DNA of 64,000 bases from Candidatus Brocadia sinica JPN1 (GCF_000949635.1 NZ_BAFN01000001.1:3531052-3595051), one strand, 5' to 3'. Positions 3,771-19,580 are shown, counted from the stretch's first letter. Numbers and translations are program-made. The notes: generated by a model from the letters alone, not told the origin.

Positions 3771-3848
3771 CGGGGTGTAGCGCAGCTTGGCTAGCGCGCT
3801 TGAATGGGGTTCAAGAGGTCGTGGGTTCAAATCCCGCCACCCCGACCA
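3771..3848 (+). tRNA. tRNA-Pro (anticodon GGG)
   Basis: A 78-base cloverleaf reads out by hand. Acceptor CGGGGTG (3771-3777) pairs with CACCCCG (3838-3844); the D stem is GCGC/GCGC; the anticodon stem CTTGA/TCAAG holds loop ATGGGGT with anticodon GGG at 3806-3808; the T stem GTGGG/CCCGC closes loop TTCAAAT. Discriminator A3845 is followed by an encoded CCA. The C1-G72 pair is typical of bacterial tRNA-Pro. Its 3' part from base 3800 is also the attachment core of the integrative element, which restores an intact tRNA gene on insertion. Confidence 0.95.
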
Positions 3849-3864
3849 CTAAAATCAAGGGTTT
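3800..3864 (+). repeat. attL core, 65 bp
   Basis: Left copy of the attachment core. It begins in the anticodon stem of tRNA-Pro and runs 16 bases past the CCA end. It is identical to 19516-19580; the bases on either side differ (C3799 against T19515, C3865 against T19581). Its last base is also the last base of the integrase stop codon complement. Confidence 0.93.
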
Positions 3865-4916
3865 CAGGCATTTGCCACTTCTCGCTTTTCCTCAAGTGTA
3901 GTCAAATTGTAGTCAGCTTCTAAAATCTGAACTCCGTCTCTCAAGCTATCTGGACAATGATGACTGTATCGCTGAGTCATCCGTATGTCATGATGACCTA
4001 ATAGCTTTGAAATTTTATAAATATCAATTCCTTTTTGCGCTAACCGCGTTGCAAAGGTATGCCGCAGATCGTGGAAGTGAAAATCCCGTAGACCAGCCTT
4101 TTCTATTGCGATATTAAAAGCCCTTCTCAGATTATGACGGTCAATCTTGTTACCCACGCCACTGGAAAACACCAAATCATTTTTAATATTCCTTATCTTT
4201 GATTTTTCCGTCAGAATATCGAATGCCACCTGGTTCAAAGGAATCGTCCTTGGCTTTCCGCTCTTTGTTTCCTGGATGATTATCGTTCTTCGTAACAGGT
4301 TTACCCTATTCCATTGAAGGGAAAGCAGTTCGCCTTGACGTAATCCAGTATGCAAGTCGAAAATGATAATATTCCGAAGCCATGGAGGAGAAACATTAAG
4401 CAATCTTTTCTTCTCGTCATCGGCCAACCAACGATCTCTATCATTACCCTCTTTCTCTTTGGGAACTTTAGAAACAGGATTATCCTTAATCCATTCCCAC
4501 TCTTTGACTGCTAGGTTAAAAGCCTTTGAGAGCATGGCCAATTCCCTATTAACGGTGGCTGGTTTTGCCTCTTCACTTTTCCTTAACACCTTGTACTCAG
4601 AAATCATCTTGGGAGATATGGACGATAATTTTGATGTACCAAAGAAGGGGATTAAGTGTTTGAGAGATGCGGAATAACTTCGTTGCATACTGATCGACAC
4701 ACTTGGGGCGTGTTCCTTCATAAACTTTTCCATCATATCAGTGAAGGTCTTACTATTTCCGGTAAGCTTTTCAAAGTATTTTCCCTCAACAATTTCAGTT
4801 TTAATCTTTGCCTCTATTGCCTGAGCAAGCTTCTTATCCGCCGTTTCAAGGCTCCTTTGAATTTTCTTGCCTCCATACCTGATGCAAGTCCACCAAACAC
4901 CGCCACGTTTATACAT
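3864..4916 (-). CDS. int: Tyrosine-type site-specific integrase
   Basis: A 350-residue phage-type integrase. The order is an N-terminal arm-binding segment (about 1-60), a SAM-like core-binding domain (about 65-160) and a catalytic domain (about 165-340). Catalytic residues are all visible: R in HTGLRQGELL, the H-x-x-R box HDLRHTFATRLA, LLGHHDIRMT and the nucleophile Y in QRYSHH. The gene abuts attL, its stop codon touching the core, so it very probably catalyses integration at this tRNA. Two TGTAGTCA repeats, likely arm-type sites, lie inside its own 3' end. Confidence 0.95.
   Translation of the reverse strand: MYKRGGVWWTCIRYGGKKIQRSLETADKKLAQAIEAKIKTEIVEGKYFEKLTGNSKTFTDMMEKFMKEHAPSVSISMQRSYSASLKHLIPFFGTSKLSSISPKMISEYKVLRKSEEAKPATVNRELAMLSKAFNLAVKEWEWIKDNPVSKVPKEKEGNDRDRWLADDEKKRLLNVSPPWLRNIIIFDLHTGLRQGELLSLQWNRVNLLRRTIIIQETKSGKPRTIPLNQVAFDILTEKSKIRNIKNDLVFSSGVGNKIDRHNLRRAFNIAIEKAGLRDFHFHDLRHTFATRLAQKGIDIYKISKLLGHHDIRMTQRYSHHCPDSLRDGVQILEADYNLTTLEEKREVANA
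3897..3915 (+). promoter_or_regulatory. Candidate integrase arm-type sites, left
   Basis: Two direct copies of TGTAGTCA start 11 bases apart (3897 and 3908), 33 bases inside the attL core and within the int coding end. The same 19-base block occurs in the same orientation at 19359-19377 near the other end. Paired short repeats flanking a core are the expected form of integrase arm sites; the function is inferred. Confidence 0.55.
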
Positions 4917-4960
4917 TTCCTCCCCCTTTCCCGTGACTGATCGTGTCTGTATGACCGCTA

Positions 4961-5200
4961 TCAGGCATTATAATTGTTTTCGAGAATGTCGCCAACAATC
5001 TTATTGACCGTTTTATCACATTGTTGTGCATCGCGTTTATGGGCTGCCATTATTTGATCTATGTCCTGTAGATCAAAAAGGACACGTCCCCGAAGTTTGA
5101 TTGATGGAATCTTTCTTTGACTTGCCCAATCATAGAGCGTCTTAACCGGCAATGAGGTATATTCGGAAACTTCTTTGATATTTACGTATCGTTTTTCCAT
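4961..5200 (-). CDS. Excisionase-like helix-turn-helix protein
   Basis: A 79-residue protein of the excisionase/HTH_17 (MerR-like winged helix) group: VNIKEVSEYTSLPVKTLYDWASQRKIPSIKLRGRVLFDLQDID has the typical domain order, with recognition helix and the wing ending in VLFD. Such proteins bend DNA as recombination directionality factors or act as small repressors. It lies 45 bases upstream of int on the same strand, the position expected of an Xis. An SD-like stretch lies ahead of the ATG. A second HTH_17 protein is at 12804-13835, so which one drives excision is open. Confidence 0.75.
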   Translation of the reverse strand: MEKRYVNIKEVSEYTSLPVKTLYDWASQRKIPSIKLRGRVLFDLQDIDQIMAAHKRDAQQCDKTVNKIVGDILENNYNA

Positions 5201-5302
5201 AATGATTTTTTATTACCCAATTCACTACCCGGTCAGCATCTCGCAAACCCTTAATTTTTCTGGACTGATTTTTTCACTTGGGTAACAAAAGATTCACTTA
5301 TA

Positions 5303-5611
5303 TTACCCGGCATTTAAAGTACTCACGGTTTGCTTTTTATTTATCATTTCACGTCTGTGTTTTTTGATGATCTCACGTACCCAAAACGAGGTAACTCCAT
5401 ATTTCCTGGCAAGCTCTCCGTAATTACCACCCTTAAACTCTTCGATGATCTTCCGCTTTTTTACCCTGGCTAAGCAAACATCCAATTTAGGCAAATAGAA
5501 TTGTTCCCCGCCTAATTCTCTCCCAAGCTTTACGACGTTCTCAATACCTATTACCATGGCGATTTGTTGATAAGTGGGAGGCAGATCATCCAGACGGATT
5601 TCATTTTCCAT
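5303..5611 (-). CDS. Mor-family transcription activator
   Basis: A 102-residue protein resembling the Mor/C activators of Mu-like phages. Family features seen are LPPTYQQIAMVIGIENVVKLGRELGG, then LPKLD, KIIEEFKGGNYGELARKYGV and the terminal helix-turn-helix TSFWVREIIKK. Mor proteins dimerise through the N-terminal half and activate middle promoters by contacting RNA polymerase. It overlaps the end of the upstream gene by 11 bases, so the two are translationally coupled. A Mor protein in an element run by a tyrosine integrase shows mosaic ancestry. Confidence 0.72.
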   Translation of the reverse strand: MENEIRLDDLPPTYQQIAMVIGIENVVKLGRELGGEQFYLPKLDVCLARVKKRKIIEEFKGGNYGELARKYGVTSFWVREIIKKHRREMINKKQTVSTLNAG

Positions 5612-6089
5612 CAGTCTTTTCCTCCATTTTCAAATAAGGTTTCGTCTCTTTCACAGAGACGTACTTCAGGATATCTGCTTTTACCTTTTCTGGCGCTTCA
5701 ATCCCCAGGGCGTGGTCTGATTCCATGAACTTTTTAAAGTCAGGGGTGGCTTTATATTCCGACTTCTTTTCAAAGAACATCTCAAACAACGGTCCCAACG
5801 GAACTTTTATATCCTCGACCTCATCCTTAACGATATAGGATTCCCGGAACGTAACAACGGCCCGGGCCGTTATTCCGTCAAGTGTAACGGTTGTTGTTTC
5901 CTTCTGCCTGTTCCTGGCAATCTCAATGAGGCGTTCCTGAATGCTGTCAAGTTCTTCATCGAGGTCCTTGATTTTCCTTTTAAGAGATAATCCCCTCTGG
6001 AGAAGTTTTTCAATTTCTGCATCCTCGGCCAGTACAAGGTGTTTCTTCCCGCCGACCTGAACCTTTTTAACCTCTTTTACGCCCTTCAC
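5601..6089 (-). CDS. Hypothetical phage-type protein, coupled to Mor
   Basis: A 162-residue charged protein that I do not recognise. Residues about 25-62 (AEIEKLLQRGLSLKRKIKDLDEELDSIQERLIEI, in part) form a predicted coiled coil; the middle (TTVTLDGITARAVVTFRESY) looks like a small beta sheet; the rest is helical and lysine-rich. There is no signal peptide or membrane segment. Its 3' end overlaps the Mor-like gene by 11 bases, making it the first gene of a short regulatory operon. The size and position resemble early genes of Mu-like phages, but no function is claimed. Confidence 0.6.
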   Translation of the reverse strand: MKGVKEVKKVQVGGKKHLVLAEDAEIEKLLQRGLSLKRKIKDLDEELDSIQERLIEIARNRQKETTTVTLDGITARAVVTFRESYIVKDEVEDIKVPLGPLFEMFFEKKSEYKATPDFKKFMESDHALGIEAPEKVKADILKYVSVKETKPYLKMEEKTDGK

Positions 6090-6627
6090 TTTTACCTCCT
6101 ATCTTTCATAAACCACCGAAGATATGCCGTACTTTTTCCCACCTTTTTTACTCTTTTTTGGAATCAAACAGCCCGAAGTATCAAAAGTTTGTGTCCACTC
6201 CCCCTTGTGGCTCAAAACAGCCACTTGTTTGCCACGATGCGCATGCAACATTCACGCATGGCAATTTCTTGCATGTTAAAACTCTCAAAAGTTTTAACAT
6301 TTCCACCTTTGGGAAGTAGTCATAACATATTGTAAATAGATAACTAAGAGTAGATTCAAGAATTATGCTTATCATAAAATATACTTCTCACCGTCATTTT
6401 TTCAGGCAAGGTAAAACTGGCAGAAAACCCTTATAAATCAAGGGATTCAAGGTGTTTTGACCTTTATGTATAGGATATAATCTTACTATTATACGAAATC
6501 CCTTCAAAAACCCTGTATAATCAAGGCTTCCCAGCCTTGTTAAAACCTTTTCCCTGTTTTTAAAACTCTTCATACTTCCAGCCTGAAAAGCCTGCTATTT
6601 CAAGGCCTTCACGTTTTCCTTGCAAAA
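6090..6627. other. 538-base gap with hairpins
   Basis: No convincing gene was found on either strand. A perfect 11-base inverted repeat (6273-6283 and 6290-6300, loop CTCAAA) sits in the middle, and a second short hairpin CAAGGCT-TCCC-AGCCTTG lies near 6521-6538. Several variants of a CCTTTAAATCAAGG-like phrase recur at 6426-6450 and 6510-6540. The gap separates the sigma-factor gene from the Mor operon on the same strand, so terminators or element-specific promoters could lie here. Confidence 0.5.
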
Positions 6628-7476
6628 TCAACCAACATTTGATATTTTAATCCCGTGAGATATCGGTTGGGCTACAGCCCCTATAACCGATATCTGACGC
6701 CCCCTCCGCTGTGGGGAGGAGAGGTCCTTTACGGGAACGTTCAGGAAAGGGGAGGCCCACTCCGCCGAACTACCTGACCGTATCGGCTTGTGAGCCATTC
6801 CGATCGCTGTCCTTTCAATTGCCCACCGTAATTTCCTGAGCGCCTTTACCTCAATCTGCCTTACCCTTTCTTTTCCCAGGTTAATTCTCTGGCCTACTTC
6901 ATCCAGGGTAAGATCATGCCAGAATCTCAGAGTAATAACCATTCTTTCCCTGGCACTTAAGCGGTTCAGGAAATCGCATACCTGACTATAAAAAGCCGTC
7001 TCCTCACTTTGTGGATCCTCCGATATGAGGATATCCCCTTGCGTCATTTCTGATTCATTCCCGTAGATCAGTTCATCAAGGGATTCATACCCATACTGCT
7101 TATGGTCCTGAACGGCTTTTTTAACCCCTTGCACTATCGCATATCCAGCATAGGTCAGAAATTTGAACCCCTTATCAGGATCAAAGGTCTCTGCAGCCTT
7201 AATAAGCCCCAGGCATCCTTCAGAAATCATATCCATCAAGGGAAGTCCAGGAGACCAGTATTGAAAAACCACCGTAATGACAAATCTCAGGTTCGACCCA
7301 ACAAGGTGATTCCTTGACGCCTCATCTCCTATCCATGATCTCCTGGCAACACTCATTTCCTCTTCCTGAGTAAGCATCTGCATTCCCCCCACATCCTTTA
7401 AAAACATCCGTAACAGCCCTCGTTCCCCGCTTCCCCTGTTTACAGAGGAATCAAGATCAAAATTTTCTTCTTCCAT
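6628..7476 (-). CDS. Sigma-70 family RNA polymerase sigma factor
   Basis: A 282-residue sigma factor. Region 1.2 (about 20-52, FLKDVGGMQMLTQEEEMSVARR), region 2 (55-125, with NLRFVITVVFQYWSPGLPLMDMISEGCLGLIKAAETFDPDKGFKF in part, then LTYAGYAIVQGV) and region 4 (about 170-225, RLSARERMVITLRFWHDLTLDEVG with helix-turn-helix KERVRQIEVKALRKLR) are clear. Region 3 is absent or tiny. The last ~55 residues are not sigma-like and include a peptide encoded by a palindromic repeat (6726-6750). It could redirect host polymerase to element promoters. A sigma factor on such an element is uncommon. Confidence 0.92.
   Translation of the reverse strand: MEEENFDLDSSVNRGSGERGLLRMFLKDVGGMQMLTQEEEMSVARRSWIGDEASRNHLVGSNLRFVITVVFQYWSPGLPLMDMISEGCLGLIKAAETFDPDKGFKFLTYAGYAIVQGVKKAVQDHKQYGYESLDELIYGNESEMTQGDILISEDPQSEETAFYSQVCDFLNRLSARERMVITLRFWHDLTLDEVGQRINLGKERVRQIEVKALRKLRWAIERTAIGMAHKPIRSGSSAEWASPFLNVPVKDLSSPQRRGRQISVIGAVAQPISHGIKISNVG
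6726..6750. repeat. Palindromic repeat inside the sigma-factor 3' end
   Basis: An imperfect 25-base palindrome centred on AACGTT (CCTTTACGG...AGGAAAGG) with further purine/pyrimidine inverted pairs on either side (6701-6725). It is read in frame as the peptide SPFLNVPVKDLSSPQRRGR in the tail of the sigma factor. Confidence 0.6.
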
Positions 7477-7568
7477 CCATCCTCCTTTCGTGATATAAGA
7501 TGCCCTTATCGCATAAGGAAAGTGGCATTTCCTCCCCTAAAGCCATGTACTTATCAGGGTGCGTGGCT

Positions 7569-8846
7569 TTATCTATTTAATGGGTTATGCATACCCGGAT
7601 GATTGTCATAGCTTTGTGCTGAATGGACGTAAATCATCGTGGTATTTATATCCTGGTGTCCTGCTAGTTTCTGAATATCTTGTATTGGCACACCCTCCTG
7701 GGCAAGTACCGTAAAGGCCGTATGCCGTAAGGCATGCGCGCTCAATACCTCACCGTCTCTTTCAATCTTGGCCTTTTTAAGGTACCGCTTCACGATATTC
7801 TCCACAGACTTAACGGAAAGCGCCTCTGGTAGCCTATCCCTTCTTATCACTAGTTTGCGATCCACGCGGTCATAGATGAAGGGTAAGAAGATAGGCAGTT
7901 CCCCGGTTATCTTTATTCCGTACCCCTTCACAATACCAATCCAGGTATCAAACGACTGCAATGCCTTCCCGTTCAGGATAATGGCCGTCTTTGGTCTGTT
8001 CTGAAATCTTCCCTTCCTGTCCGTAATCCAGACCTTTTGTTGACCTTTCACCCTGTCGTGTTCAAGGTGCTTATGCCTGAGGCCAGCTATCTCGTTTGCC
8101 CTGAGACCATACACGAGCATGATTACGAGGATTGCATAATCACGCCTCCCGATCTCCGTCTTCCGGTCCGGCTGGCCCAATAGCCGCTGTGCCTCCGATA
8201 CAGAAAGGACGGTATAGTAACCCTTATCCTTCTTTGGAAAGATAAGGGACAGTTCCTTAAAAAGGATAGGATTCCTGAACTTCCTATTTTCCCGTTCAAT
8301 GTACTTAAAGAATCGATTGAGGGATATAAACTTATTCCAAATCGTTGTATCCCGGTAGTTTTGCCCTCTGAGGTAGTCCCTGTATGCCAGGAGGTCTATC
8401 TTTGAGATATCACAGAGATCCTTATTTACCCAGGTAAAGAACAGTTTGATCAGGTTCTCGTAACTCTTCCGGGTATTCGTGGTATTCTGGATAGCCAGGA
8501 ATCCGCCAAGATATCGTGTAAAATCTTCGCTCTTGATGCCGGTATGGGTCTTAAACTCCGTTAAGGTGTCAATAGGGTTCTGGAATCCCTTAACCTTCTT
8601 TTCCAGGAACTTAAAGAAGCCGTTGAGTATGGAAAACTTCCTCTTAGCAGTCTTTGACGAATGCTCATGGGAAAGCCTTTCCTGGTAGGAGTGGAGAGTC
8701 TCTTTACTGATATTTGAGATCTCACAATTCTTGAAGTCAAAGAATTGCTGTATCTCTGACCGGTAAACCCTCTGACTGCTACCGTTCACCTTTTTCAAAT
8801 ATTGGTTGAAAATCTTTTGGCCTGAATCAGTATCAAGAAATGACAT
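7569..8846 (-). CDS. Tyrosine recombinase with two core-binding domains
   Basis: A 425-residue recombinase when started at the ATG at 8846, one base after the stop of the GemA-like gene; a longer open frame to 8912 overlaps that gene and is less likely. Two successive SAM-like segments (about 1-90 and 105-195) precede the catalytic domain. Catalytic blocks are intact: LVYGLRANEIAGL, SAHALRHTAFTVLAQEG, LAGHQDINTTM and nucleophile Y in MIYVHS. The end ...DNHPGMHNPLNR is short. It resembles Xer/integron-type enzymes more than the att-proximal integrase; resolving multimers or moving a cassette is possible. Confidence 0.88.
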   Translation of the reverse strand: MSFLDTDSGQKIFNQYLKKVNGSSQRVYRSEIQQFFDFKNCEISNISKETLHSYQERLSHEHSSKTAKRKFSILNGFFKFLEKKVKGFQNPIDTLTEFKTHTGIKSEDFTRYLGGFLAIQNTTNTRKSYENLIKLFFTWVNKDLCDISKIDLLAYRDYLRGQNYRDTTIWNKFISLNRFFKYIERENRKFRNPILFKELSLIFPKKDKGYYTVLSVSEAQRLLGQPDRKTEIGRRDYAILVIMLVYGLRANEIAGLRHKHLEHDRVKGQQKVWITDRKGRFQNRPKTAIILNGKALQSFDTWIGIVKGYGIKITGELPIFLPFIYDRVDRKLVIRRDRLPEALSVKSVENIVKRYLKKAKIERDGEVLSAHALRHTAFTVLAQEGVPIQDIQKLAGHQDINTTMIYVHSAQSYDNHPGMHNPLNR

Positions 8847-8847
8847 G

Positions 8848-9312
8848 TTAAACCTCTGTAACCAGTTTCTTTTTAGCACGTTTGAGGACTGTAATAACAA
8901 CCCCAGCCTCATTACCGCCTAATTTATCAAGGATATCCTTGCTAAATCTCTTACGGATAAAGTTCGTAAGATGTTCATCATCCCATCCGGCCTCTTTTTT
9001 AAGATTTTCTATAAAAGATAGTTGACCGGGTGTTGCCAGGGGTACAAAACGGCCTATAATCTTCTTATCTTTTTTCGATGTCAGGATAGTCCCCCTTAAC
9101 AAAGGGGGATTCAGGGGGTTGTTTTCAAAAACAGATCTCTTACCTTCCATAACATCAATAAGCTTTATCCCCTGGCGCTTGGTAAGCTCCCTGGTAGAGT
9201 CCTGGCCAGATATCCACCTGACGAGATCCCGGAGCTGTTCCTCCGCCATCCCTATCTCTTGGGCCTTTGTCCAAATCTTCGCCTTTTGTGCCTTCGTTAT
9301 CCCTTTTGCCAT
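8848..9312 (-). CDS. GemA-like (Mu gp16, DUF1018) regulatory protein
   Basis: A 154-residue protein with the pattern of phage GemA/gp16 proteins: ITKAQKAKIWTKAQEIGM, LRDLVRWISGQDSTRELTKRQ and the C-terminal TPGQLSFIENLKKEAGW...FIRKRFSKD. In Mu this protein affects host gyrase and replication functions; here the role is inferred by family only. Residues 64-77 (NNPLNPPLLRGTIL) are encoded by a dispersed palindromic element at 9091-9120 and interrupt the two halves. It sits between the recombinase and the iteron array, co-oriented with the replication gene. Confidence 0.62.
   Translation of the reverse strand: MAKGITKAQKAKIWTKAQEIGMAEEQLRDLVRWISGQDSTRELTKRQGIKLIDVMEGKRSVFENNPLNPPLLRGTILTSKKDKKIIGRFVPLATPGQLSFIENLKKEAGWDDEHLTNFIRKRFSKDILDKLGGNEAGVVITVLKRAKKKLVTEV
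9091..9120. repeat. Palindromic element inside the GemA-like gene
   Basis: Hairpin arms CCCCCTT (9091-9097) and AAGGGGG (9102-9108) followed by TTCAGGGGGTT. Related copies are at 14633-14690, 12229-12250 and 53768-53806. Here it is translated in frame. Confidence 0.7.
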
Positions 9313-9362
9313 AAAAAATAACTTAGAAATGTAAAATGCTCCTATAGGAAAAATAACAAAAA

Positions 9363-9548
9363 GGTGTAGTAGGTGTAGTAACCCTTATAAATACTGGTGT
9401 TTTTGGTTAAAAAAGGTGTAGTTACAAGGTGTAGTTGACTACACCTTACTACACCTTGACTACACCTCACTACACCACAACTACACCTTGAATAATCTGG
9501 AATCCCTTTATTGGTGCGGGTTACTACACCTACTACACCTACTACACC
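9363..9548. repeat. Iteron-like array, candidate replication origin
   Basis: Twelve exact copies of GGTGTAGT lie in 186 bases: four direct (9363, 9372, 9415, 9428) and eight inverted as ACTACACC (9438, 9448, 9459, 9469, 9480, 9523, 9532, 9541). The five from 9438 to 9480 alternate 10 and 11 bases apart, a 10.5-base helical phase. The outer groups are 9 bases apart, and a 22-base block (9363-9384) is inverted at 9518-9539. The array lies directly downstream of the replication-protein gene. It looks like an initiator-binding origin; a regulatory role is the alternative. Confidence 0.7.
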
Positions 9549-9568
9549 ACACTTTTGAAAAGTATACG

Positions 9569-12205
9569 TCATATATTTAAAAACTCCTTAACCACCTGCC
9601 AGGGAATAATGGTAAACCTTCTTTGCTTAATTATCCCGTCTTCTATCCTGGCATTTCTTGAACAAGTAAACTTTCCACCCTCACACTTAATCCAACCTTT
9701 TTCAGCCCAGGATTTAAGAATGGCCCTTTCTGAGAATTTCTCATTTCTGAGAACCTCAGCAAGCTTATGAGGGTAAATCCCTATGTATTCCCCCTCTTTC
9801 CACTGGCCGTAAGACTCAAAATCGGTATCCTTGAAGTATTGCTCATTTCCGCTTGCCCAGGATAAGACGTGTTGCATTGCCCTGGTACCAATATCTACAT
9901 CATTCAAAGACTCACTGATTACGTTGTCAAACACCCGGTCAATAAATTCCCTGGCTGCCACAGGATCGCCAATCCCCAAAATTTCATAAACAAGGTCTGC
10001 CGCCAGCTTGATCACCGCAAAGTAATGACTGTACCTATCTCCTACCTCTGAATTTGCCTCCAGAGATAACGCCCGTTGGTACATCTTGTAATCGGCCTTT
10101 AGCCTGTTCATCTTATCCACGTTGTCCCAAATGGACAGGATACCCTCTACAAACTTGGCCCCGGCGTGCCCGTAATTTTCCCTTAACCCCGTCTTCAGCT
10201 CATTGATGAAATCACCTCCTATGTTGGGGAAGGGTGAACCATAAAGCTCAATCGTACGCGCCCGGGCGCCGGCAAAGGTGGTGCATTCGATTAAAGGACG
10301 TTCGCCTGTGGAAAAACAGACTGTATGCCACGTTGGATTATGCCTGATGCCAGCGGTAGCACCGCGTCCGCGACCAACGCCGTTGGCAATCTGATAAAGC
10401 ATACTCGACATGGTACGGTCATCTACCATTTGCGAATCGTCCGGAAAGATGGGAATATCACAAAAAAAGTTAGCAATCCTTTCTAAAAATACCTTCGTGG
10501 AATCCCAGCCAAAGACCAGTCCTCCCGCCTCCTTGTGTGGATTTCCCCATACGCTGGCAGCCAGTTCCAAAACGGTTGTCTTGCCAACGGATGTATTGCC
10601 CCAAAAGTCGATAATAAAATTCGGCGCTTTGAGCATCCTGAGAAGTGGCGCGGAAAACGAGGCATAAAAGGCAAATGCAGCATAGGGATATTTCAAGGCA
10701 GGTTCTATACATTCCCTCCATTTTACATACGTACCCTCTGGCTTAACTGCCTTGACGAACCTCTCGTAGCCGGGTTCCGGCGAAAACTCAACGGATACCT
10801 CTTTATTGCCCTGGCCAGCTTTCTTACCTATCATCTTTTCAAGGATAAACACCCGTTTGTTCTCAACAGACTTAAAACCAAAGCCTTTGGAAACGAAGGT
10901 CTTTGGGATAAGCTGCATATTGAAGTGCTCAAAGGCTGCCAGGTATTCAATCATCTTTCCGCAGTTCCGGCTATTTACCGGTAAACCGTGACTTGCAAGC
11001 TCAATAATCTTTTTCGCATCGGAGATCAACAGTTTGGAGATCCAAATCTTCTTCCACTTATGGTCCCGCTTAAAGGCGATCTCAACGTCTTCAAAACCTG
11101 AATCAACGTCTATTGCCCGGCCGGTAATGAAAAGTGGGGTATAAAAGGCAGGCTTTTTGATTGAATCATCTCTGAAGTAGATTATCTGATTTACTCGATC
11201 CTCTTTAACCTCAAACCCCTCCGGTTCTATAAGCTTGATACCGTCAATCTCTTTTATTTCAAAAGCGATCTCTTTCGCACTATCAATAAGCCTTTGAAAG
11301 TCTTCCTTTGTCTTCCCCAGGGTAACAAAGAAGTCCGTTACGTCCTTCTTGTCTTTGGAATCCATGAAGGACGGCCATTGAATGACCTTCACGCTCCTGG
11401 CAGTACCTTTAATGAATTCGGCTACCTTCAAGGCTCCCTGCCTTCCCGGTTCGTCATTGTCATATGCAAGGATCACATTGAGATTGGTAAAGAGTGAGTT
11501 CCATTCCCGCTTCCAGGTGTTAGCCCCGCCGGTCCCAGAGACAGCCGGGAAACCCATCTGGTTGAGAAGTAATGCTTTGAATTCGCCCTCGCTAACGAGG
11601 ATAAAAGGGAGATCCTCTTTGATCACATTGGAAGGATACAAAAGTACCTTTCCACTTTTAAGCTGGTTGCCCTTATGTTCCTTAAAAGTCCACTTACCCG
11701 GCTCAATTTCCATCGGGATAACGTAATGTTCATTCTGATAGCCTATGAGGTACTTTTCTATGGTCTCTCTGAACAAACCGTACTTATCCTGGAAGGTCTT
11801 TAATGCCGTCTCGTTCTTCAATAATTGGTTATGGATGAGCTTCACCTGATCAAGGGTGAGATGTGAAGGCTTCTTGGTAGTTTTGGATTTTGGATTTCGT
11901 CCTGAACTTGATTCAGGATCAGATTTTATTCCCTCTTCCTCCTTAATTTTTTCAAGGGCGCCTTTCTTATCCAGCCCATACCGCAATTGAATAAACTTGA
12001 CCACGCCTCCTTGCTCACCGCAACCAAAGCATTTAAAAACACCCTTTTCCAGGTTTACCGATAAGGAAGGATCCTTGTCGTTGTGGAAAGGGCAAAGACA
12101 TTGAACCTCCGTCTTGCCATTCGGGTCAAACCCCGGTATGTGCCTTGTGTAAAAACTTTTATAGTCAATCTTGCTCAGTACGTCTGTAGTCTTATCCATT
12201 TTCAA
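9569..12205 (-). CDS. Primase-helicase replication protein (CHC2, Toprim, DUF927)
   Basis: An 878-residue multidomain protein. Residues 36-62 hold a CHC2 zinc finger (C36, H41, C59, C62), as in DnaG. A Toprim-like domain follows (LVSEGEFKALLLNQMGFPAV ... ILAYDNDEPGRQGA). The C-terminal half is a DUF927/superfamily-3-like ATPase with Walker A GNTSVGKTT and Walker B-like DIPIFPDDSQ. Together they prime and unwind DNA at the element's origin. Residues 94-109 (KSDPESSSGRNPKSKT) come from an in-frame palindromic repeat at 11900-11918. Start could be 12205 or the next ATG at 12199. It is the main evidence that the element can replicate itself. Confidence 0.88.
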   Translation of the reverse strand: MKMDKTTDVLSKIDYKSFYTRHIPGFDPNGKTEVQCLCPFHNDKDPSLSVNLEKGVFKCFGCGEQGGVVKFIQLRYGLDKKGALEKIKEEEGIKSDPESSSGRNPKSKTTKKPSHLTLDQVKLIHNQLLKNETALKTFQDKYGLFRETIEKYLIGYQNEHYVIPMEIEPGKWTFKEHKGNQLKSGKVLLYPSNVIKEDLPFILVSEGEFKALLLNQMGFPAVSGTGGANTWKREWNSLFTNLNVILAYDNDEPGRQGALKVAEFIKGTARSVKVIQWPSFMDSKDKKDVTDFFVTLGKTKEDFQRLIDSAKEIAFEIKEIDGIKLIEPEGFEVKEDRVNQIIYFRDDSIKKPAFYTPLFITGRAIDVDSGFEDVEIAFKRDHKWKKIWISKLLISDAKKIIELASHGLPVNSRNCGKMIEYLAAFEHFNMQLIPKTFVSKGFGFKSVENKRVFILEKMIGKKAGQGNKEVSVEFSPEPGYERFVKAVKPEGTYVKWRECIEPALKYPYAAFAFYASFSAPLLRMLKAPNFIIDFWGNTSVGKTTVLELAASVWGNPHKEAGGLVFGWDSTKVFLERIANFFCDIPIFPDDSQMVDDRTMSSMLYQIANGVGRGRGATAGIRHNPTWHTVCFSTGERPLIECTTFAGARARTIELYGSPFPNIGGDFINELKTGLRENYGHAGAKFVEGILSIWDNVDKMNRLKADYKMYQRALSLEANSEVGDRYSHYFAVIKLAADLVYEILGIGDPVAAREFIDRVFDNVISESLNDVDIGTRAMQHVLSWASGNEQYFKDTDFESYGQWKEGEYIGIYPHKLAEVLRNEKFSERAILKSWAEKGWIKCEGGKFTCSRNARIEDGIIKQRRFTIIPWQVVKEFLNI
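11900..11918. repeat. Palindromic element inside the primase-helicase gene
   Basis: Arms TCCTGAA (11900-11906) and TTCAGGA (11912-11918) around CTTGA. It is translated in frame in the linker between zinc finger and Toprim domain. This TCCTGAA-type palindrome is a common dispersed repeat type in bacterial genomes. Confidence 0.65.
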
Positions 12206-12625
12206 CCTCTGTTTAAAAAACTTGTTTTCCCTCTTGAGAGGGGTTAGGGGTGTGTTTCCTTCTCAGCTTGCCATATGGCATAGCAGGATATAGAGGACAC
12301 GTTTCAACCTCACAATCCCTTCGACCATCAACATAATCACACATACAGTCCTTACGCCTTTGCCCTGATCATTTGCTTATACGACAGGGTGTTTCTCTTT
12401 TTCACGCCTTGTACTTCCTTTAAAATCAAAAACCAGGTCTCAAAACACGCTTAATAAGCATATTTTTAACATGCCGATTTGCTTCTGCGACCAAAACCAC
12501 GCACCTTAAAACAAAAAAGCCGATTAACGGGAATTACTTCCCATCAATCGGCTGGCTTGCTATTTTTAAAATGTGGCTAGCTAATAGCTGGCTTGCCTAT
12601 TCTTACCTGTCCCGGACAGATAAGT
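12206..12625. other. Gap with palindromic repeat and hairpin
   Basis: No gene is supported. At 12229-12242 is a CCCTCT/AGAGGG palindrome followed by a GGTTAGGGGTGTG phrase, an intergenic copy of the repeat family seen inside genes. At 12518-12553 AGCCGATT pairs with AATCGGCT, with an inner GGG/CCC extension; read downstream on the minus strand the neighbouring small gene ends at 12626, so this hairpin may terminate it. Confidence 0.5.
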
Positions 12626-12799
12626 TTATTTCTGCATCATGAATTTATTACTTTTTGTCTTTTTAATTTGGTAATTTCCGACAACCATACCCAAATCATC
12701 TATTATCCTGACAGGGATAGGAAATTGCTCTTTCATGGATATCTTAATTTCCCGCTCTTTTGGCGATTCGTTGAATTCGAGAGACGACATATTTCCCAT
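12626..12799 (-). CDS. Small hypothetical protein, coupled to the HTH gene
   Basis: A 57-residue ORF starting MGNMSSLEF and ending NKFMMQK. A strong SD (GGAGG) lies six to eight bases upstream of the ATG and overlaps the stop of the HTH gene, so it would be translated by coupling. The middle, KEQFPIPVRIIDDLGMVVGN, looks like a short beta-rich fold. I do not recognise it. Support comes from the SD and the position. Confidence 0.55.
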   Translation of the reverse strand: MGNMSSLEFNESPKEREIKISMKEQFPIPVRIIDDLGMVVGNYQIKKTKSNKFMMQK

Positions 12800-12803
12800 G
12801 ATT

Positions 12804-13835
12804 TTAACCTCCTTTTTTTGGTTGTTTGAGTAACGATTTCAAGGCCTTTACTTCGGCCTCTATTTGTTTGATTCTTTTAATGACACCTTCTCTTGCCTCA
12901 TCCCCAGTAAAAATCTTTTCCCTTAATCCCGTCTCGATTTGTTCCGGGGTAAGTTCATCTATTGCTTTGTCCATCACAAAAAAGCCACATACTGGAAACG
13001 AATAAAAATTCATAGTAAAATAACAGAACCCATGAACATATAAAGCGAAGAAAGTTTCACTATCGAAGTATCTATTCGCGTAGCTAACAAGGTCTTCCTG
13101 GTGGCTGTCACGACGGGAAATAGGTGCATTCTTGTTCTCTTTCTGCCTATATTCCAGCTTCCCATACTCTAGATAAACAACAATCCTTGTAAACTCAGAC
13201 AAGATTTCATTTACAAGACTCTCTTTAATGAAACCAATATAAGCCGCTTTCAAGTTTTCTTCGGCATCAGGGTCAGCTATACAGAGGTTCTCTCTCACAT
13301 TTTCAATCAGCCGTTTCTTTAGTTGTCGAAGATAGCTAATATCCAAATCCAGTTTACCTTTGAAGACTTCCTGTATTGTTAAATAGTTTGTTATGGCGCC
13401 GATTTCAGAACCTTCATAAACAGGCGTGTTCTTTTTCATAAGGCGTGGATATACTAATTCTGCGTCTAAGATCTCCTTGGCAGCTTCTAAAACCTCTCCA
13501 TCAAATTCAAAAGGGAGCCTTTCTTCACGCCAGTAATCCGTTGTAGTGCTTCTCACTTCCTCTAAAAGCACGCTCTCTTTGGTTATTTGGTTGATCCCTG
13601 TAGGGTTATCTGATACAAGATAATACCGGTCACCCTTTTTAAGATAGCGCCTTTCTTCCTTTCTTTGCTCCACTATCCAGTTATCAATTTCAGCCTTTTT
13701 AAATCTGACTGCTTTCAGACCGATCTTGTGGAAAGGGATTTGTTTATTGTGGATTTTGTTGTAGATGGTCTGCTTCTCAAAGCCAAGATATTGAGCAACC
13801 TCGTCAACCGTCATATATTTATCTTCTGCAGCCAT
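12804..13835 (-). CDS. HTH_17 DNA-binding protein with long C-terminal domain
   Basis: A 343-residue protein. The first ~58 residues are an excisionase-type helix-turn-helix: MTVDEVAQYLGFEKQTIYNKIHNKQIPFHKIGLKAVRFKKAEIDNWI (in part). The remaining ~280 residues are unknown, helical, and end in a coiled-coil KRIKQIEAEVKALKSLLKQ. Small excisionases lack such a domain, so it is probably a regulator or replication accessory factor. It precedes a coupled 57-residue gene and the replication gene on the same strand. Its upstream region holds repeated AGTTACTTTATA boxes that could be its own operators. Confidence 0.72.
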   Translation of the reverse strand: MAAEDKYMTVDEVAQYLGFEKQTIYNKIHNKQIPFHKIGLKAVRFKKAEIDNWIVEQRKEERRYLKKGDRYYLVSDNPTGINQITKESVLLEEVRSTTTDYWREERLPFEFDGEVLEAAKEILDAELVYPRLMKKNTPVYEGSEIGAITNYLTIQEVFKGKLDLDISYLRQLKKRLIENVRENLCIADPDAEENLKAAYIGFIKESLVNEILSEFTRIVVYLEYGKLEYRQKENKNAPISRRDSHQEDLVSYANRYFDSETFFALYVHGFCYFTMNFYSFPVCGFFVMDKAIDELTPEQIETGLREKIFTGDEAREGVIKRIKQIEAEVKALKSLLKQPKKGG

Positions 13836-13862
13836 GTGACCTCCTACTATTTGTTTACTTTA

Positions 13863-13894
13863 AGTTACTTTATAATAACTATAGTTACTTTATA
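13863..13894 (-). promoter_or_regulatory. Repeated operator-like boxes
   Basis: AGTTACTTTATA occurs at 13863-13874 and 13883-13894, exactly 20 bases (two helical turns) apart, with a related TTTACTTTA just before. They lie 28-60 bases upstream of the HTH_17 gene start in an AT-rich promoter-like stretch. An autoregulatory operator is a reasonable guess. Confidence 0.45.
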
Positions 13895-13955
13895 TAAACA
13901 CCGATGTCAAGAAAAAAATTAAAATTTTCTTTATATCCCTTTTACCCGCCTTCCT

Positions 13956-14225
13956 TCACCTTTCGAATTTAATTATCCGATGTTGTTGGTTTTTTTTAAA
14001 TTCACCAGGCGCATTAATCACATTCCTAATTTCATAGCATGCCTCGATGGTTTTAATGATCGCCTTCCGGCTGCCCTCGTTTTCTCCGCGCAGAATAGCA
14101 ACTACCATATTGATAAGTTCCTGTTCCATCGGTGGAAGTCCAGCATATTTAACAATTTCCGATGATTCGGAAACTGTTTCAGTCACCAGTTTTATATTTG
14201 GCGGTACCCAATTTTTTTTAGACAT
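13956..14225 (-). CDS. Small hypothetical protein
   Basis: An 89-residue ORF beginning MSKKNWVPPNIKL. The centre (LPPMEQELINMVVAILRGENEGSRKAIIKTIEACYEI, in part) forms two amphipathic helices with a glutamate- and lysine-rich C-terminus. There is no membrane segment and no recognised motif. An SD-like GGAGGGTAAT lies just upstream of the ATG on the minus strand, which supports it as a real gene. Position between two regulatory/recombinase genes suggests an element-specific accessory factor. Confidence 0.5.
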   Translation of the reverse strand: MSKKNWVPPNIKLVTETVSESSEIVKYAGLPPMEQELINMVVAILRGENEGSRKAIIKTIEACYEIRNVINAPGEFKKNQQHRIIKFER

Positions 14226-14336
14226 GACTATTACCCTCCATTATCCTTTCTTTGCCAAAAAAACCAAATAGGGCACGGGCGCCGTGCCCCTACAATTTAT
14301 TTTCCTTTGCGCCCTCTGCGTCTCTGCGGTGAATAA

Positions 14337-15014
14337 TCATAATGCGAACTGCAACCGCGCAATGGCATCCATCTTCTTTTCATCTGATGTATGCAAATAT
14401 TTCTCAGTCGTCCTTATGTGGCTATGTCCCAAAAGCTCCTGCACCGTCTTCAGGTCAACCCCCTTATCCAGGAGCGTGGTAGCAAAGGTGTGTCTCGTGG
14501 TATGTGGAGTAATCCTCTTGGCAATCAAGGCATCCTTCCTCACCCGCCGTAAAAGACAATCCACCGCCTTATGCGTAAGCGGTCGCACCTCACAATTCCC
14601 ATGCTCCCCAAGGGTATAAAATAAATACTTTTCCCCTCTATCAAGAGGGGTAAGGGGTGTGTTATCCCCCTTATCAAAGGGGGCAAGGGGGTTGTTTTCC
14701 TCTGCGTTCTCTGCGGTGAATCTTTGCTTCATCGCCTTTTGATACTCCAGCACAGCCTCCATCACATCCCTGTTCAGTGCAACACGCCGGTATTTATCAC
14801 CCTTACCCATCACATCAACCACCGGTTGATTCCGGTACGTGGTAACGTCTGCAACCCTGAGATTGCATACCTCCGCCTTTCTGAGTCCCGTGGAGAACAT
14901 CAGGAGCAAAAGGGCATAATCCCGCTTGCCCTTCAGCGTCCTCCTGTCCGGTGCCCTGAGGATCACGCTAATTTCATCCTCCGTTAGAAATTCAGATACC
15001 CTTTTTGATTTCAT
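14337..15014 (-). CDS. Minimal tyrosine recombinase (catalytic domain only)
   Basis: A 225-residue recombinase that begins at the catalytic domain; the SAM-like core-binding domain is missing. Active-site blocks are intact: TGLRKAEVCNL (R45), HTTRHTFATTLLDKG, LLGHSHIRTTEKY with the nucleophile Y. Residues 99-128 are a foreign peptide (ENNPLAPFDKGDN and TPLTPLDRGEK) encoded by two tandem palindromic repeats in frame. A promoter and operator palindrome lie directly upstream, shared with a divergent RHH gene. It may act with a second protein for core binding, or be a remnant kept open. Confidence 0.85.
   Translation of the reverse strand: MKSKRVSEFLTEDEISVILRAPDRRTLKGKRDYALLLLMFSTGLRKAEVCNLRVADVTTYRNQPVVDVMGKGDKYRRVALNRDVMEAVLEYQKAMKQRFTAENAEENNPLAPFDKGDNTPLTPLDRGEKYLFYTLGEHGNCEVRPLTHKAVDCLLRRVRKDALIAKRITPHTTRHTFATTLLDKGVDLKTVQELLGHSHIRTTEKYLHTSDEKKMDAIARLQFAL
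14633..14721. repeat. Three dispersed repeats inside the minimal recombinase gene
   Basis: Two hairpins sit side by side: CCCCTCT/AGAGGGG (14633-14639, 14644-14650) and CCCCCTT/AAGGGGG (14666-14672, 14677-14683). A CTCTGCG...GCGGTGAAT phrase follows at 14699-14721 and recurs at 14313-14334 just past the gene end. All are translated without breaking the frame. Confidence 0.75.
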
Positions 15015-15037
15015 AAATTTTTCACCTCCATAAAATT

Positions 15038-15062
15038 ATGTAATTATCAGTGATAATTACAT
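15038..15062. promoter_or_regulatory. Operator palindrome between recombinase and RHH gene
   Basis: A perfect inverted repeat, ATGTAATTATC (15038-15048) and GATAATTACAT (15052-15062) with a 3-base centre. It overlaps the -10 box and start region of the minus-strand promoter next to it. The adjacent RHH protein is the obvious candidate ligand. Confidence 0.65.
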
Positions 15063-15089
15063 GATATTTAATTAATATATAATTGTCAA
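15061..15089 (-). promoter_or_regulatory. Promoter of the minimal recombinase gene
   Basis: On the minus strand a consensus TTGACA (complement of 15084-15089) is 17 bases from TATCAT (complement of 15061-15066). Spacing is ideal for sigma-70, and the palindrome at 15038-15062 would let a repressor block it. Confidence 0.62.
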
Positions 15090-15135
15090 CTAATTTCTAT
15101 TGAAGTTTTAAATTTTTTTTGATAGTATCTTCGTC

Positions 15136-15348
15136 ATGAAAAAAGCAACATATAGCATCGTTTTAACTCCTGGAATAAAAGAGGCTTTAGAAAAGGCAGC
15201 CCAAAAAGACCGCCGGTCTATGTCGTCATTTCTTGAAAAGCTCATAATTGAGTACTTAGAAAAAGAGGGGATACCTTGGGAAAACGGTTCTGTTGAAGGT
15301 AAACCCGTAAAAGCTGGGCGTCCTAAAAAAGAAACTTCAAAGAAATAA
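15136..15348 (+). CDS. Ribbon-helix-helix (CopG/Arc-like) repressor
   Basis: A 70-residue protein with an N-terminal beta strand ATYSIVLTP and helices IKEALEKAAQKDRRSMSSFLEKLIIEYLEKEG, typical of ribbon-helix-helix dimers; the tail is lysine-rich (KAGRPKKETSKK). These bind palindromes with the paired strands. It is divergent from the minimal recombinase across a 25-base palindrome, which suggests it controls that promoter and its own. No toxin gene follows directly, so it is probably not an antitoxin. Confidence 0.75.
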   Translation: MKKATYSIVLTPGIKEALEKAAQKDRRSMSSFLEKLIIEYLEKEGIPWENGSVEGKPVKAGRPKKETSKK

Positions 15349-15465
15349 GGGACTTGCCTGGGTGGCTACGCATCGGGTCTGCCTATTTGCCTTTTTTACC
15401 CTTTATGGTATACTTTTAAAGAAGATATATGGTGCGGGGTTACCAGATCTTTGACGGCCATATAT

Positions 15466-15488
15466 GATGTGACGTACGCCGTCACATC
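15466..15488. other. Perfect 9-bp hairpin
   Basis: GATGTGACG and CGTCACATC pair around TACGC in the 190-base gap after the RHH gene. The following bases are pyrimidine-rich but lack a clean T run, so terminator or binding site remain open. Confidence 0.4.
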
Positions 15489-15536
15489 CTTTGTTCCCCG
15501 GTATTCTCTAACCTTTAGCCAGTTTCCCTTATCACC

Positions 15537-15815
15537 ATGGAAGCAATCATTGTATTAATCATCATAATTTTGATAGTCTATGCATTCATAAAACATCAGC
15601 GCAAAAAGGAAAAAGAACTTACCCCATATGAGCGTCAGAAACAAGTAAAAGAAATGGCGAAAGGGGTTGAAGAGCTTATCAACGAGGTAGTCCAGGAATC
15701 AGAGTACGGGAAAAAAACCAACGAAGAGATTGAACAATTGAGAAGCGAAGTTAAGCAATTACGAAAGGAGTTGAGTGAATTAAAAAAGGATGATCATGAT
15801 AAGCAAAATATTTAG
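15537..15815 (+). CDS. Small membrane protein with coiled coil
   Basis: A 92-residue ORF. Residues 3-18 are a single membrane helix (AIIVLIIIILIVYAFI) followed by a positively charged HQRKKEKEL stop, so the C-terminus faces the cytoplasm. Residues about 58-88 (NEEIEQLRSEVKQLRKELSELKK) form a heptad-like coiled coil. The topology recalls PspB-type proteins, but the sequence does not match closely. No function is assigned. It opens a run of small genes leading into the toxin-antitoxin pairs. Confidence 0.6.
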   Translation: MEAIIVLIIIILIVYAFIKHQRKKEKELTPYERQKQVKEMAKGVEELINEVVQESEYGKKTNEEIEQLRSEVKQLRKELSELKKDDHDKQNI

Positions 15816-15826
15816 GAGATTTCACC

Positions 15827-15997
15827 ATGCAAATTAAATTGACGGCAGTCTTCCAAAAGGTACCCGAAGGATACATCGGATTTGTAGAAGAACTGCCGGG
15901 CGCCAATACACAGGGAGATACATTAGAGGAAGCACGGAGCAACCTGGAAGAGGCAGTACAATTAGTCCTGGATGCCGACCGGGAATTAAAGGAGTAA
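15827..15997 (+). CDS. HicB-like antitoxin-fold protein
   Basis: A 56-residue protein with the compact HicB/UPF0150 pattern: beta strands IKLTAVFQKVPEGYIGFVEELPGANTQGDTLEEARSNLEEAVQL (in part). The PGANTQGDTLEEA signature is characteristic. SD AGGAG precedes the ATG by about 10 bases. It is followed after 4 bases by the next gene. No HicA toxin (small, dsRBD-like, with an active His) is next to it, so it may serve as an orphan antitoxin or have been recruited into the following module. Confidence 0.68.
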   Translation: MQIKLTAVFQKVPEGYIGFVEELPGANTQGDTLEEARSNLEEAVQLVLDADRELKE

Positions 15998-16001
15998 AAA
16001 C

Positions 16002-16250
16002 ATGCGTACAACCTTAAAAAAGAAGAAAGACCTTATCAAGGTCAAACAGTTTGTAACCAATAGCGAAGGTCAAAAAGTAGCAGCCATAATCGAAATGGAA
16101 GAGCTGAGCAGGATCGAGGGATTGTTAAAGGTCATTCCACCTTCAGAAGCATGGCTTTACCAAAACAAGGAAGCAGTGGAAAGCGTCCAGAAAGGTTTAA
16201 AAGAAGCGTCAGAAGGCAAGATATCAAAACTCAATCTTAATAAACTTTAG
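16002..16250 (+). CDS. Antitoxin of the first toxin-antitoxin pair
   Basis: An 82-residue protein that directly precedes a RelE-type toxin gene by 9 bases. The N-terminal part (KVKQFVTNSEGQKVAAIIEMEELSRIEGLL) resembles Phd/YefM or prevent-host-death antitoxins, with a helical C-terminus (NKEAVESVQKGLKEASEGKI) expected to wrap the toxin. Antitoxin identity rests on size and position more than on motif. Confidence 0.62.
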   Translation: MRTTLKKKKDLIKVKQFVTNSEGQKVAAIIEMEELSRIEGLLKVIPPSEAWLYQNKEAVESVQKGLKEASEGKISKLNLNKL

Positions 16251-16259
16251 GATAATACC

Positions 16260-16553
16260 TTGTTTGAGATATTTCTTACCAACCACGCAAGGGAACAATT
16301 AGACCAGCTCAAAACCGACAAGGGGCTGTTTAAAAGATACAAAGCGGTAAAAAAGGCCATTCAATTTTTATCCCAAAATCCAAGACACCCAGGGTTACAA
16401 ACGCATGAATTTACTACGCTGAAAGGCCCAAAAGGTGAGAAAGTTTTTGAAGCCTATGCCGAACAATCAACCCCGGCAGCTTATAGAATATTCTGGTATT
16501 ATGGCCCAGACAAAAATCAAATTACCATTATCGCCATAACCCCACACCGGTAA
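16260..16553 (+). CDS. RelE/ParE-superfamily toxin, first pair
   Basis: A 97-residue basic protein starting at a TTG codon (16260) in tight linkage to its antitoxin. The RelE/ParE fold pattern is visible: FEIFLTNHAREQLDQL, an alpha hairpin with KRYKAVKKAIQFLSQNPRHPGLQTHE and the C-terminal strands AYRIFWYYGPDKNQITIIAITPH. The R/Y in YRIFW and terminal HR are usual. It should act on translating mRNA or on gyrase; which cannot be told. It supports element maintenance by post-segregational killing. Confidence 0.7.
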   Translation: MFEIFLTNHAREQLDQLKTDKGLFKRYKAVKKAIQFLSQNPRHPGLQTHEFTTLKGPKGEKVFEAYAEQSTPAAYRIFWYYGPDKNQITIIAITPHR

Positions 16554-16652
16554 TGCAGGATGACAGTAGGAAATTTTCGGCGCTGCCTACGGCGTTTCCG
16601 GGCACATACCCGGCAGCGATATGAGGGGGAGAAGTCGGCCCTCCATCCTGCA
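16551..16652. repeat. Structured repeat, complete copy
   Basis: Begins TAATGCAGGATGACAGTAGG and ends CATCCTGCA: TGCAGGATG (16554-16562) is inverted at 16644-16652, followed by a T run. A CCGGG/CCCGG hairpin lies inside. The first 52 bases recur at 17143-17194 with two mismatches. Two copies bracket the second toxin-antitoxin pair. Confidence 0.72.
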
Positions 16653-16677
16653 TTTTTAATTATGAGGAGATCTTGTT

Positions 16678-16881
16678 GTGAAAGTATCAGATTTGACAGT
16701 TGAAGAGTTTGAAGAACTGCTCCGCAAGACGATAGAAGATGAAGTAGAAGACCTCTACATCATGTTAGACCCTACCATAAAGACGAAGATTGAGGAGGGG
16801 TTAGCGGATATCAGGGAGGGTAAGGTTGTATCCCTGGATGATCTCGTAGCCCGAAGGAAGGCTAAACGTGGGGAGATTTAA
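16678..16881 (+). CDS. Antitoxin of the second toxin-antitoxin pair
   Basis: A 67-residue acidic protein starting with GTG behind GAGGAG. The sequence MKVSDLTVEEFEELLRKTIEDEVEDL ... EEGLADIREGKVVSLDDLVARRK has the RelB/ParD-like pattern of an acidic helical N-terminus and a toxin-binding tail. Its end overlaps the toxin start by 14 bases, a standard coupled arrangement. Confidence 0.7.
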   Translation: MKVSDLTVEEFEELLRKTIEDEVEDLYIMLDPTIKTKIEEGLADIREGKVVSLDDLVARRKAKRGEI

Positions 16882-17134
16882 GGTTATCTTGTCTGATAAG
16901 GCTGGCAAAGATACTGATACCCTATCAGACGATGACTTTAATCGCATCGTAAACAGATGCAAACGGCTCGAAGATAATCCATTCCCTGACGGCAAGCATA
17001 TCAAGAAGCTCAAAGGTTACGAAGACCTCTATCGCTTAAGAATCGGTGATTACCGGATCGTCTTTGAATGGAAAGGATCACAAATTAACATCGCAAGAAT
17101 TCTCACCCGGCAGGATTTTGGAAAGAAGTATTAA
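16868..17134 (+). CDS. RelE-family toxin, second pair
   Basis: An 88-residue protein. MGRFKVILSDKAGKDTDTLSDDDFNRI, RLEDNPFPDGKHIKKLKGYEDLYRLRIGDYRIVFEWKGSQINIARILTRQDF (in part) is a near-standard RelE/mRNA interferase: KKLKG, YRLRIGDYRIVFE and a terminal R/H-rich strand. It begins at GTG inside the antitoxin frame. Such toxins cleave ribosomal A-site mRNA. Together with the antitoxin it forms a complete module bracketed by copies of the structured repeat. Confidence 0.85.
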   Translation: MGRFKVILSDKAGKDTDTLSDDDFNRIVNRCKRLEDNPFPDGKHIKKLKGYEDLYRLRIGDYRIVFEWKGSQINIARILTRQDFGKKY

Positions 17135-17142
17135 ATCAAACA

Positions 17143-17194
17143 TAATGCAGGATGACAGTAGGAAAATTTCGGCGTTGCCTACGGCGTTTCCGGG
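17143..17194. repeat. Structured repeat, truncated copy
   Basis: A 52-base copy of 16551-16602 differing at two positions. It lacks the right half, including the CATCCTGCA arm, and ends two bases before the stop of the small minus-strand gene at 17197. Confidence 0.72.
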
Positions 17195-17196
17195 TA

Positions 17197-17373
17197 TTAA
17201 CCATAACCGACACCTGGATTTTCCTTCGTATGACCTTTAATCAATACTTCCACTGTTTCGCGGTTATACTGAGTTTCGTCAAGGGCAATTTGTTTTATCC
17301 GTTCCCCCGTTTGATCGTCAATATACTCCAAAAAGCGCTCTTCACCCATTTTGACAGTTCTTTTTGTAATCAT
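17197..17373 (-). CDS. Small hypothetical protein upstream of the TA pair
   Basis: A 58-residue ORF (MITKRTVKMGEERFLEY ... NPGVGYG). The SD AAAGGAGG lies about 10 bases before the ATG, and it follows the tape-measure gene by 54 bases on the same strand, so it is likely a phage-type tail gene or a leftover of that operon. The central DQTGERIKQIALDETQYNRETVEVLIKGH is helical. No family is recognised. Confidence 0.55.
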   Translation of the reverse strand: MITKRTVKMGEERFLEYIDDQTGERIKQIALDETQYNRETVEVLIKGHTKENPGVGYG

Positions 17374-17427
17374 GCCTATACTGCCTCCTTTCTAAAAAGT
17401 TCCGAATGCCCATTTCGAATTTCTGAA

Positions 17428-19329: not shown

Positions 19330-19358
19330 TTTTCTTCCCTTTTTTTAAAAGTTCTGAT

Positions 19359-19377
19359 TGTAGTCAAATTGTAGTCA
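19359..19377 (+). promoter_or_regulatory. Candidate integrase arm-type sites, right
   Basis: An exact 19-base match to 3897-3915, holding TGTAGTCA at 19359 and 19370. It lies about 139 bases inside the attR core. Same orientation as the left pair. Confidence 0.55.
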
Positions 19378-19515
19378 ACTCCAGCGTAATTCTACGGAAT
19401 TAGTCGGAATCAACAGGAAAAACTTGAAATCTATAACACATTACAATACAATTAGTTGCGGTCATAACAGACACCATGTCAGTCAGTTATGAAAAATACA
19501 AAAAACACTATGTTT

Positions 19516-19580
19516 TTGAATGGGGTTCAAGAGGTCGTGGGTTCAAATCCCGCCACCCCGACCACTAAAATCAAGGGTTT
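19516..19580 (+). repeat. attR core, 65 bp, with partial tRNA
   Basis: Right copy of the attachment core, identical to 3800-3864. It carries the tRNA-Pro 3' half through CCA; the 5' half is missing, so it is not a functional tRNA gene. Confidence 0.93.

Follow-up and report, generated by a model that had tools for sequence, protein, structure and literature searches.

Palindromic elements of Rickettsia and Wolbachia are translated in frame within ordinary proteins, at tolerated positions (PMC10969869, PMC2229807). The Rickettsia palindromic elements (RPEs) are ~105-150 bp long and have their own consensus (PMC2229807, PMC10969869), and an RPE-bearing guanylate kinase of Rickettsia is translated and active (PMC2229807). 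REPs of the GTAG/CGTC type, which are hairpins of 20-40 bp, have been found, in several phyla, inside DNA-metabolism genes, as in Opitutus terrae, R. conorii and Xanthomonas (recB); in two Xanthomonas the recB site is about the same but the REPs differ (PMC3733652). According to one report, IS elements exist that target REPs (PMC1525189).

We analysed a window of 64,000 nucleotides (C1:3531052-3595051) of the complete 4.08-Mb chromosome of JPN1, an anammox bacterium of the genus Brocadia (as Candidatus Brocadia sp. MAG_8); coordinates below are window positions unless prefixed C1, for the chromosome. Dispersed palindromic repeats are translated in open frames in genes of a mobile element within this window, and different repeats occupy the same linkers in related elements. 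The likely explanation, in our view, is that host repeats land at random and that in-frame copies survive in dispensable linkers after selection. A literature search of incomplete coverage returned no prior description in anammox genomes.

The integrated element and its repeat-bearing genes

The element spans 15.8 kb (3800..19580, unstranded) and was delimited by its direct-repeat ends, tRNA-Pro, integrase and gene order. It is bounded by a 65-bp direct repeat (3800-3864 and 19516-19580, 100% identical) that abuts tRNA-Pro; the tRNA-Pro gene (3771-3848) overlaps one copy, and a tyrosine integrase (3864-4916) lies beside this end. Kuenenia hertensis (L114) and Jettenia ecosi (L115) share this gene set and order, of which two Brocadia genomes (L116, L117) have partial versions. 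No phage structural genes were named among the element proteins scanned with Pfam and PHROGs. An Rfam scan of the window returned only tRNA and a c-di-GMP-I riboswitch (54303-54424, plus strand, 56.8 bits), which lies shortly downstream of an intergenic repeat at 53765. Two 52-nt copies (96%) of a sequence beginning TAATGCAGGATGACAG stand 592 bp apart (16551-16602 and 17143-17194), after toxin-antitoxin-like small genes.

The GemA-like gene (PF06252, Pfam E 1.5e-7; 8848..9312, minus strand) contains a repeat unit of the type designated T1 (9088..9122, minus strand; C1:3540139-3540173), which matched the covariance model R1 described below with an E of 2.7e-12 and encodes NNPLNPPLLRG at residues ~64-77. 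Its hairpin, CCCCCTTAACAAAGGGGG, occupies 9091-9108; the frame is open and the domain intact. The GemA homologues in genomes G006 and G008 are without the segment and have nothing comparable, the Kuenenia linker holds another C-rich hairpin (CCCCCTCCGGAGGGGG), and that of Jettenia a weaker hairpin. In the AlphaFold model, two helical halves are joined by a low-confidence linker (residues 60-89, with a stretch of pLDDT<50) that holds the insert.

A second gene (14337..15014, minus strand; Pfam Phage_integrase E 6e-37) encodes a tyrosine recombinase that consists of the catalytic domain only and bears three repeat units in a single loop. Its nearest folds are XerA, XerH and IntI4, and it keeps the R, H, R, H, Y catalytic set of tyrosine recombinases (TGLR45, H171, R174, H197 and Y206). 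The loop reads TAENAEE-NNPLAPFDKGD-NTPLTPLDRGE in an open frame, and the Pfam domain is intact. TAENAEE is encoded by a CCGCAGAG-type dispersed repeat (14699..14720, minus strand), a family with 13 genomic sites when up to 3 mismatches are allowed, versus 0 for the control. A 33-nt T1 unit (14663..14695, minus strand; R1 match E 4.1e-11) encodes NNPLAPFDKGD, and a directly oriented 33-nt T2 unit abutting it (14630..14662, minus strand; R1 match E 9.0e-11) encodes NTPLTPLDRGE; the hairpins are CCCCTCTATCAAGAGGGG at 14633-14650 and CCCCCTTATCAAAGGGGG at 14666-14683. Just downstream of the gene, a perfect palindrome (GGGCACGGGCGCCGTGCCC, 14271-14289) lies beside a second CCGCAGAG-type repeat (14313-14331).

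Outside the loop, the recombinase homologues are 71-95% identical to the window protein. Inside it, T1 and T2 were seen in the window and in Brocadia MAG_8, CCGCAGAG alone in Jettenia, a perfect palindrome GTAGAGACGC..GCGTCTCTAC in Kuenenia, a CCCCCTC..GAGGGGG hairpin in G009 and in a broken paralogue in the JPN1 genome (genome position 2122431), and a candidate repeat GCAGTAGGCAGTAGGCAG (GCAGTAGGC) in Nitrospinia. Tolerance is not universal, since the CCGCAGAG insert coincides with a stop or truncation in G008 and G002. A second recombinase, the fifth gene concerned, has an in-frame GTAGAGACGC palindrome in MAG_8, and the alignment of that gene breaks further on. In MAG_8, IS-like ends, CAGGGCTACGTCAAG and CTTTGACGTTACCCTG (L072 6350-6365 and L073 70-110), interrupt the first recombinase itself where T1 meets T2, with ~10 bp (GGGATAACAC) duplicated exactly at this junction, a sequence pattern which suggests that an IS targeted the repeat.

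AlphaFold predicted a confident recombinase fold whose single long internal low-confidence stretch (residues 105-127, pLDDT<50) is the insert. In the integron integrase IntI4 an extra segment aligns with this loop, which shows that the fold can take up added sequence at this point. The suggestion of the first-pass annotation that the repeats are tolerated in non-essential loops was thus supported in the case of both GemA and the recombinase. Homologues with no repeat, or with a different one, delimit the two inserts, which coincide with the only long internal stretches predicted at low confidence. The claim of open frames also held for all repeat peptides of these two proteins. Homologues carrying the same peptides free of the repeat were not seen among those compared. 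No target-site duplication was evident at either insert, and no empty-site copy differing just by the insert was found.

The primase-helicase (CHC2 zinc ribbon, Toprim and DUF927 by Pfam and PHROGs; 9569..12205, minus strand) carries a palindrome, TCCTGAACTTGATTCAGGA (GATCCTGAATCAAGTTCAGGAC), that encodes SDPESSSG in the linker after the zinc ribbon (11899..11920, minus strand). The JPN1 genome holds one exact match to it and two matches with 3 mismatches, and the palindrome is a repeat family in G048 (21 matches). Jettenia has a version with one compensated pair in this linker, and Kuenenia has CCCCCGCCAGCGGGGG. The linker is of the same length in the window, Jettenia and Kuenenia, with no net or clean insertion visible, and 7-bp arms were found at 15 sites in 10.5 kb versus 3.9 in shuffles, so that arms alone are not improbable. 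A proline- or serine-rich linker that merely resembles a repeat by chance is therefore conceivable for the primase, given the equal length of its homologues and the frequency of such arms; as an account of the locus, chance is highly improbable, since the exact family found throughout the genome, together with its controls, excludes it for the GemA and recombinase inserts.

The sigma-70 family gene (Sigma70 r1.2, r2 and r4; 6628..7476, minus strand) ends in a C-terminal tail of translated repeat DNA. Part of it is a dispersed hairpin sequence (6654..6728, minus strand; inverted arms 6654-6668 and 6685-6699) with 83% identity over 64 nt to a copy at C1:3688360-3688423. Sigma tails of homologues are shorter or different: G008 has the same dispersed hairpin in diverged form, Kuenenia has a T2 unit, and Jettenia and G006 have neither. 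The copy at C1:3688360 (L045 1500-1600) has prophage-like head genes on one side and a tRNA on the other; what appears to be another integrated element has its edge here.

These results redraw the initial claim that four genes contain peptides of one repeat family. GemA and the recombinase do; the sigma tail, said to carry NNPL/TPLTP peptides, is a C-terminal read-in of another family, and the primase is doubtful. At least three unrelated families are involved, those of the primase and sigma genes differing from T1/T2. The two intergenic copies that had been noted are real: a degenerate T2 unit upstream of the primase (12229..12256, plus strand), recognized by its sequence and a 76% repeat of 14623-14663, and a unit outside the element (53765..53802, minus strand; R1 match E 4.3e-5, and sequence).

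T1/T2 units within and beyond the element

T1 and T2 share one plan: ACAACCCCCT or ACACACCCC (the ACAAC/ACACA tag), 2-4 bases, and the hairpin CCCC(CT/TC)T-NNNN-A(AG/GA)GGGG. The units are C-rich and REP-like, 29-60 nt long (mostly 30-38), with a 7-bp stem in which C-G and U-A pairs are switched jointly at two positions. The strict hairpin pattern occurs at ~42 places in the genome versus 1 for a reversed control pattern, and is also common in most relatives examined. With the covariance model R1 (E<=0.01), we obtained at least 88 genome matches and at least 83 full-length units in 62 clusters; these counts are lower bounds, as 150 of 2817 candidates were scored, and the 83 full-length matches were examined. 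Among close pairs of units, 18 of 19 are inverted and 5-26 nt apart, the sole direct pair being T1-T2 inside the recombinase.

The genome has 15 Y1_Tnp genes, and none of these loci has a T1/T2 unit within ~1.5 kb; adjacency to RAYT genes as the source of mobility was therefore rejected. One RAYT-like gene (L025, G000:C1:2207128) stands beside a different translated palindrome (VPKLRLGTR), and may pair with that family rather than with T1/T2.

In the retrieved stretches of the genome, which the in-gene counts cover, 12 in-gene T1/T2 sites were seen in 11 genes. Three of these are restriction-modification genes at 1.84-1.857 Mb, with several putative inserts; the others are GemA, the recombinase, a UvrD-like helicase, a radical SAM gene, RACo, genes for an aminotransferase and a TPR protein, and one gene without a name. 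The repeat interrupts the open frame of the UvrD-like helicase gene. A uniform reading strand was rejected, as certain in-gene units are read from the opposite strand. In a gene-dense bacterial genome most copies are expected inside genes, so their low in-gene share suggests purging. The restriction-modification island (G000:C1:1838000-1857000; L155, L156, L157 and L167) encodes an Eco57I-type methylase, an N6/N4 methylase and a ResIII subunit, and its many in-frame repeats include HTPNPLSRGEYKSPLLGGDSGVG.

It had also been proposed that the element may be a hub for spread, which would make it a vehicle carrying repeats from one genome or locus to another. In-gene sites are indeed denser in the element than genome-wide, with 2 of the 12 in 0.39% of the genome (P ~0.001, post hoc), but the restriction-modification island is denser still (P ~3e-7, post hoc), so the element is not unique. 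T1/T2 are abundant in relatives where searches for GemA and the recombinase gave no match (for example, 257 matches in G022 and 197 in G015), and viral contigs have almost none (11 stretches in 2.9 million). Related elements hold other repeats, several of which are abundant in their own host. Since these element genes are missing from most repeat-rich relatives and there is no transposase close by, we regard a hub as very unlikely. A viral route was likewise rejected: profiles of GemA and the recombinase found no relative in IMG/VR, where T1/T2 are so scarce, and no phage record matched.

The distribution of GTAGAGACGC is suggestive at most. We counted 44 copies of this repeat in the Kuenenia host against 0-5 in Brocadia genomes, T1/T2 being abundant in both, which would fit acquisition of the Kuenenia loop in the present or a recent host; yet the Jettenia genome also has 44 copies and a different recombinase loop.

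Filling of the linkers

Random insertion followed by selection offers the simplest route to these observations. Short palindromes of REP/MITE type, from several unrelated families, would insert across Brocadiales genomes, and most copies landing in genes would disappear, having disrupted either the reading frame or an essential domain. The survivors would be in-frame copies situated in disordered linkers or at C-terminal ends. The element appears to offer three tolerant internal linkers (in the recombinase loop, GemA and the primase) and the sigma tail, and as it moved among anammox hosts these sites may have acquired the repeats of the current host, sometimes side by side. The repeats themselves, their open frames, the disordered location of the inserts in GemA and the recombinase, and the differing repeats at equivalent linkers of related elements were observed; the mechanism of insertion, the order of events and the neutrality of the inserts are what we infer here.

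The peptides or the mRNA hairpins could instead be kept as useful, for translation tuning, flexibility or protein tagging. The same linkers are filled repeatedly, and the two recombinase units, each exactly 33 nt, follow one another in direct orientation, which sets them apart from nearly every other pair. In addition, the T1 unit of the MAG_8 recombinase differs from that of the window by one base, a near-identity that could reflect constraint, recency or recent exchange. Against usefulness, peptides of different families share no sequence (VETQGIASLRG, KAVGSRQ, TAEGAEE), several homologues have no such peptides, and the segments are predicted to be disordered; we consider it quite improbable.

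An occupied linker might also attract later repeats, or have its palindrome replaced by them, through repeat-targeted insertion or conversion, and would then be a true hot spot. The series CCGCAGAG, T1 and T2 in one loop would fit this, as would the IS-like ends and the duplication at the MAG_8 T1/T2 junction, given the report of IS elements with REPs as targets (PMC1525189). The Kuenenia and Nitrospinia loops hold only one repeat each, and selection for tolerated sites predicts the same pattern, so a hot spot seems unlikely to us. A related and similarly doubtful idea, which we rate only slightly higher, is that the linkers are exchange slots in which the repeats of each new host insert or replace others at the same codon positions; if so, the proteins would hold a changing record of past hosts. 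Random insertion with subsequent selection remains the explanation we favour. The element provides a natural comparative experiment, with different repeats in the same linker of five orthologous genes across four to seven lineages, which can test neutral leftovers at tolerated sites against targeted events. The repeat content could mark an element's past hosts.

Comparison with described systems

The new features are the clade (anammox bacteria), the location in a mobile element, and linkers that were refilled repeatedly in five genes; the known range of in-frame palindromic elements thereby comes to include anammox bacteria and a mobile element. The parallel with Rickettsia drawn by the first-pass annotation holds for the kind of event and fails for family membership. 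As with RPEs, a dispersed palindrome is translated in frame, and the GemA and recombinase domains are intact, as judged from sequence. Unlike the 105-150 bp RPEs with their long stem-loop, the brocadial units are ~30-38 bp, C-rich, of several unrelated families and from Planctomycetota, and related elements show refilling at the same sites.

The in-gene REPs resemble the present units in being short hairpins, singles or dimers, in DNA-metabolism genes. They differ in their terminal GTAG/CGTC tag, in place of which T1/T2 have ACAAC/ACACA, and the units described here recur in several genes within a single mobile element, as well as in several lineages. The REPIN/RAYT system is matched in that the T1/T2 hairpins form chiefly inverted doublets. 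Unlike that system, T1/T2 units do not flank the Y1_Tnp loci, and unlike REPINs, the in-gene copies are singles or one direct pair.
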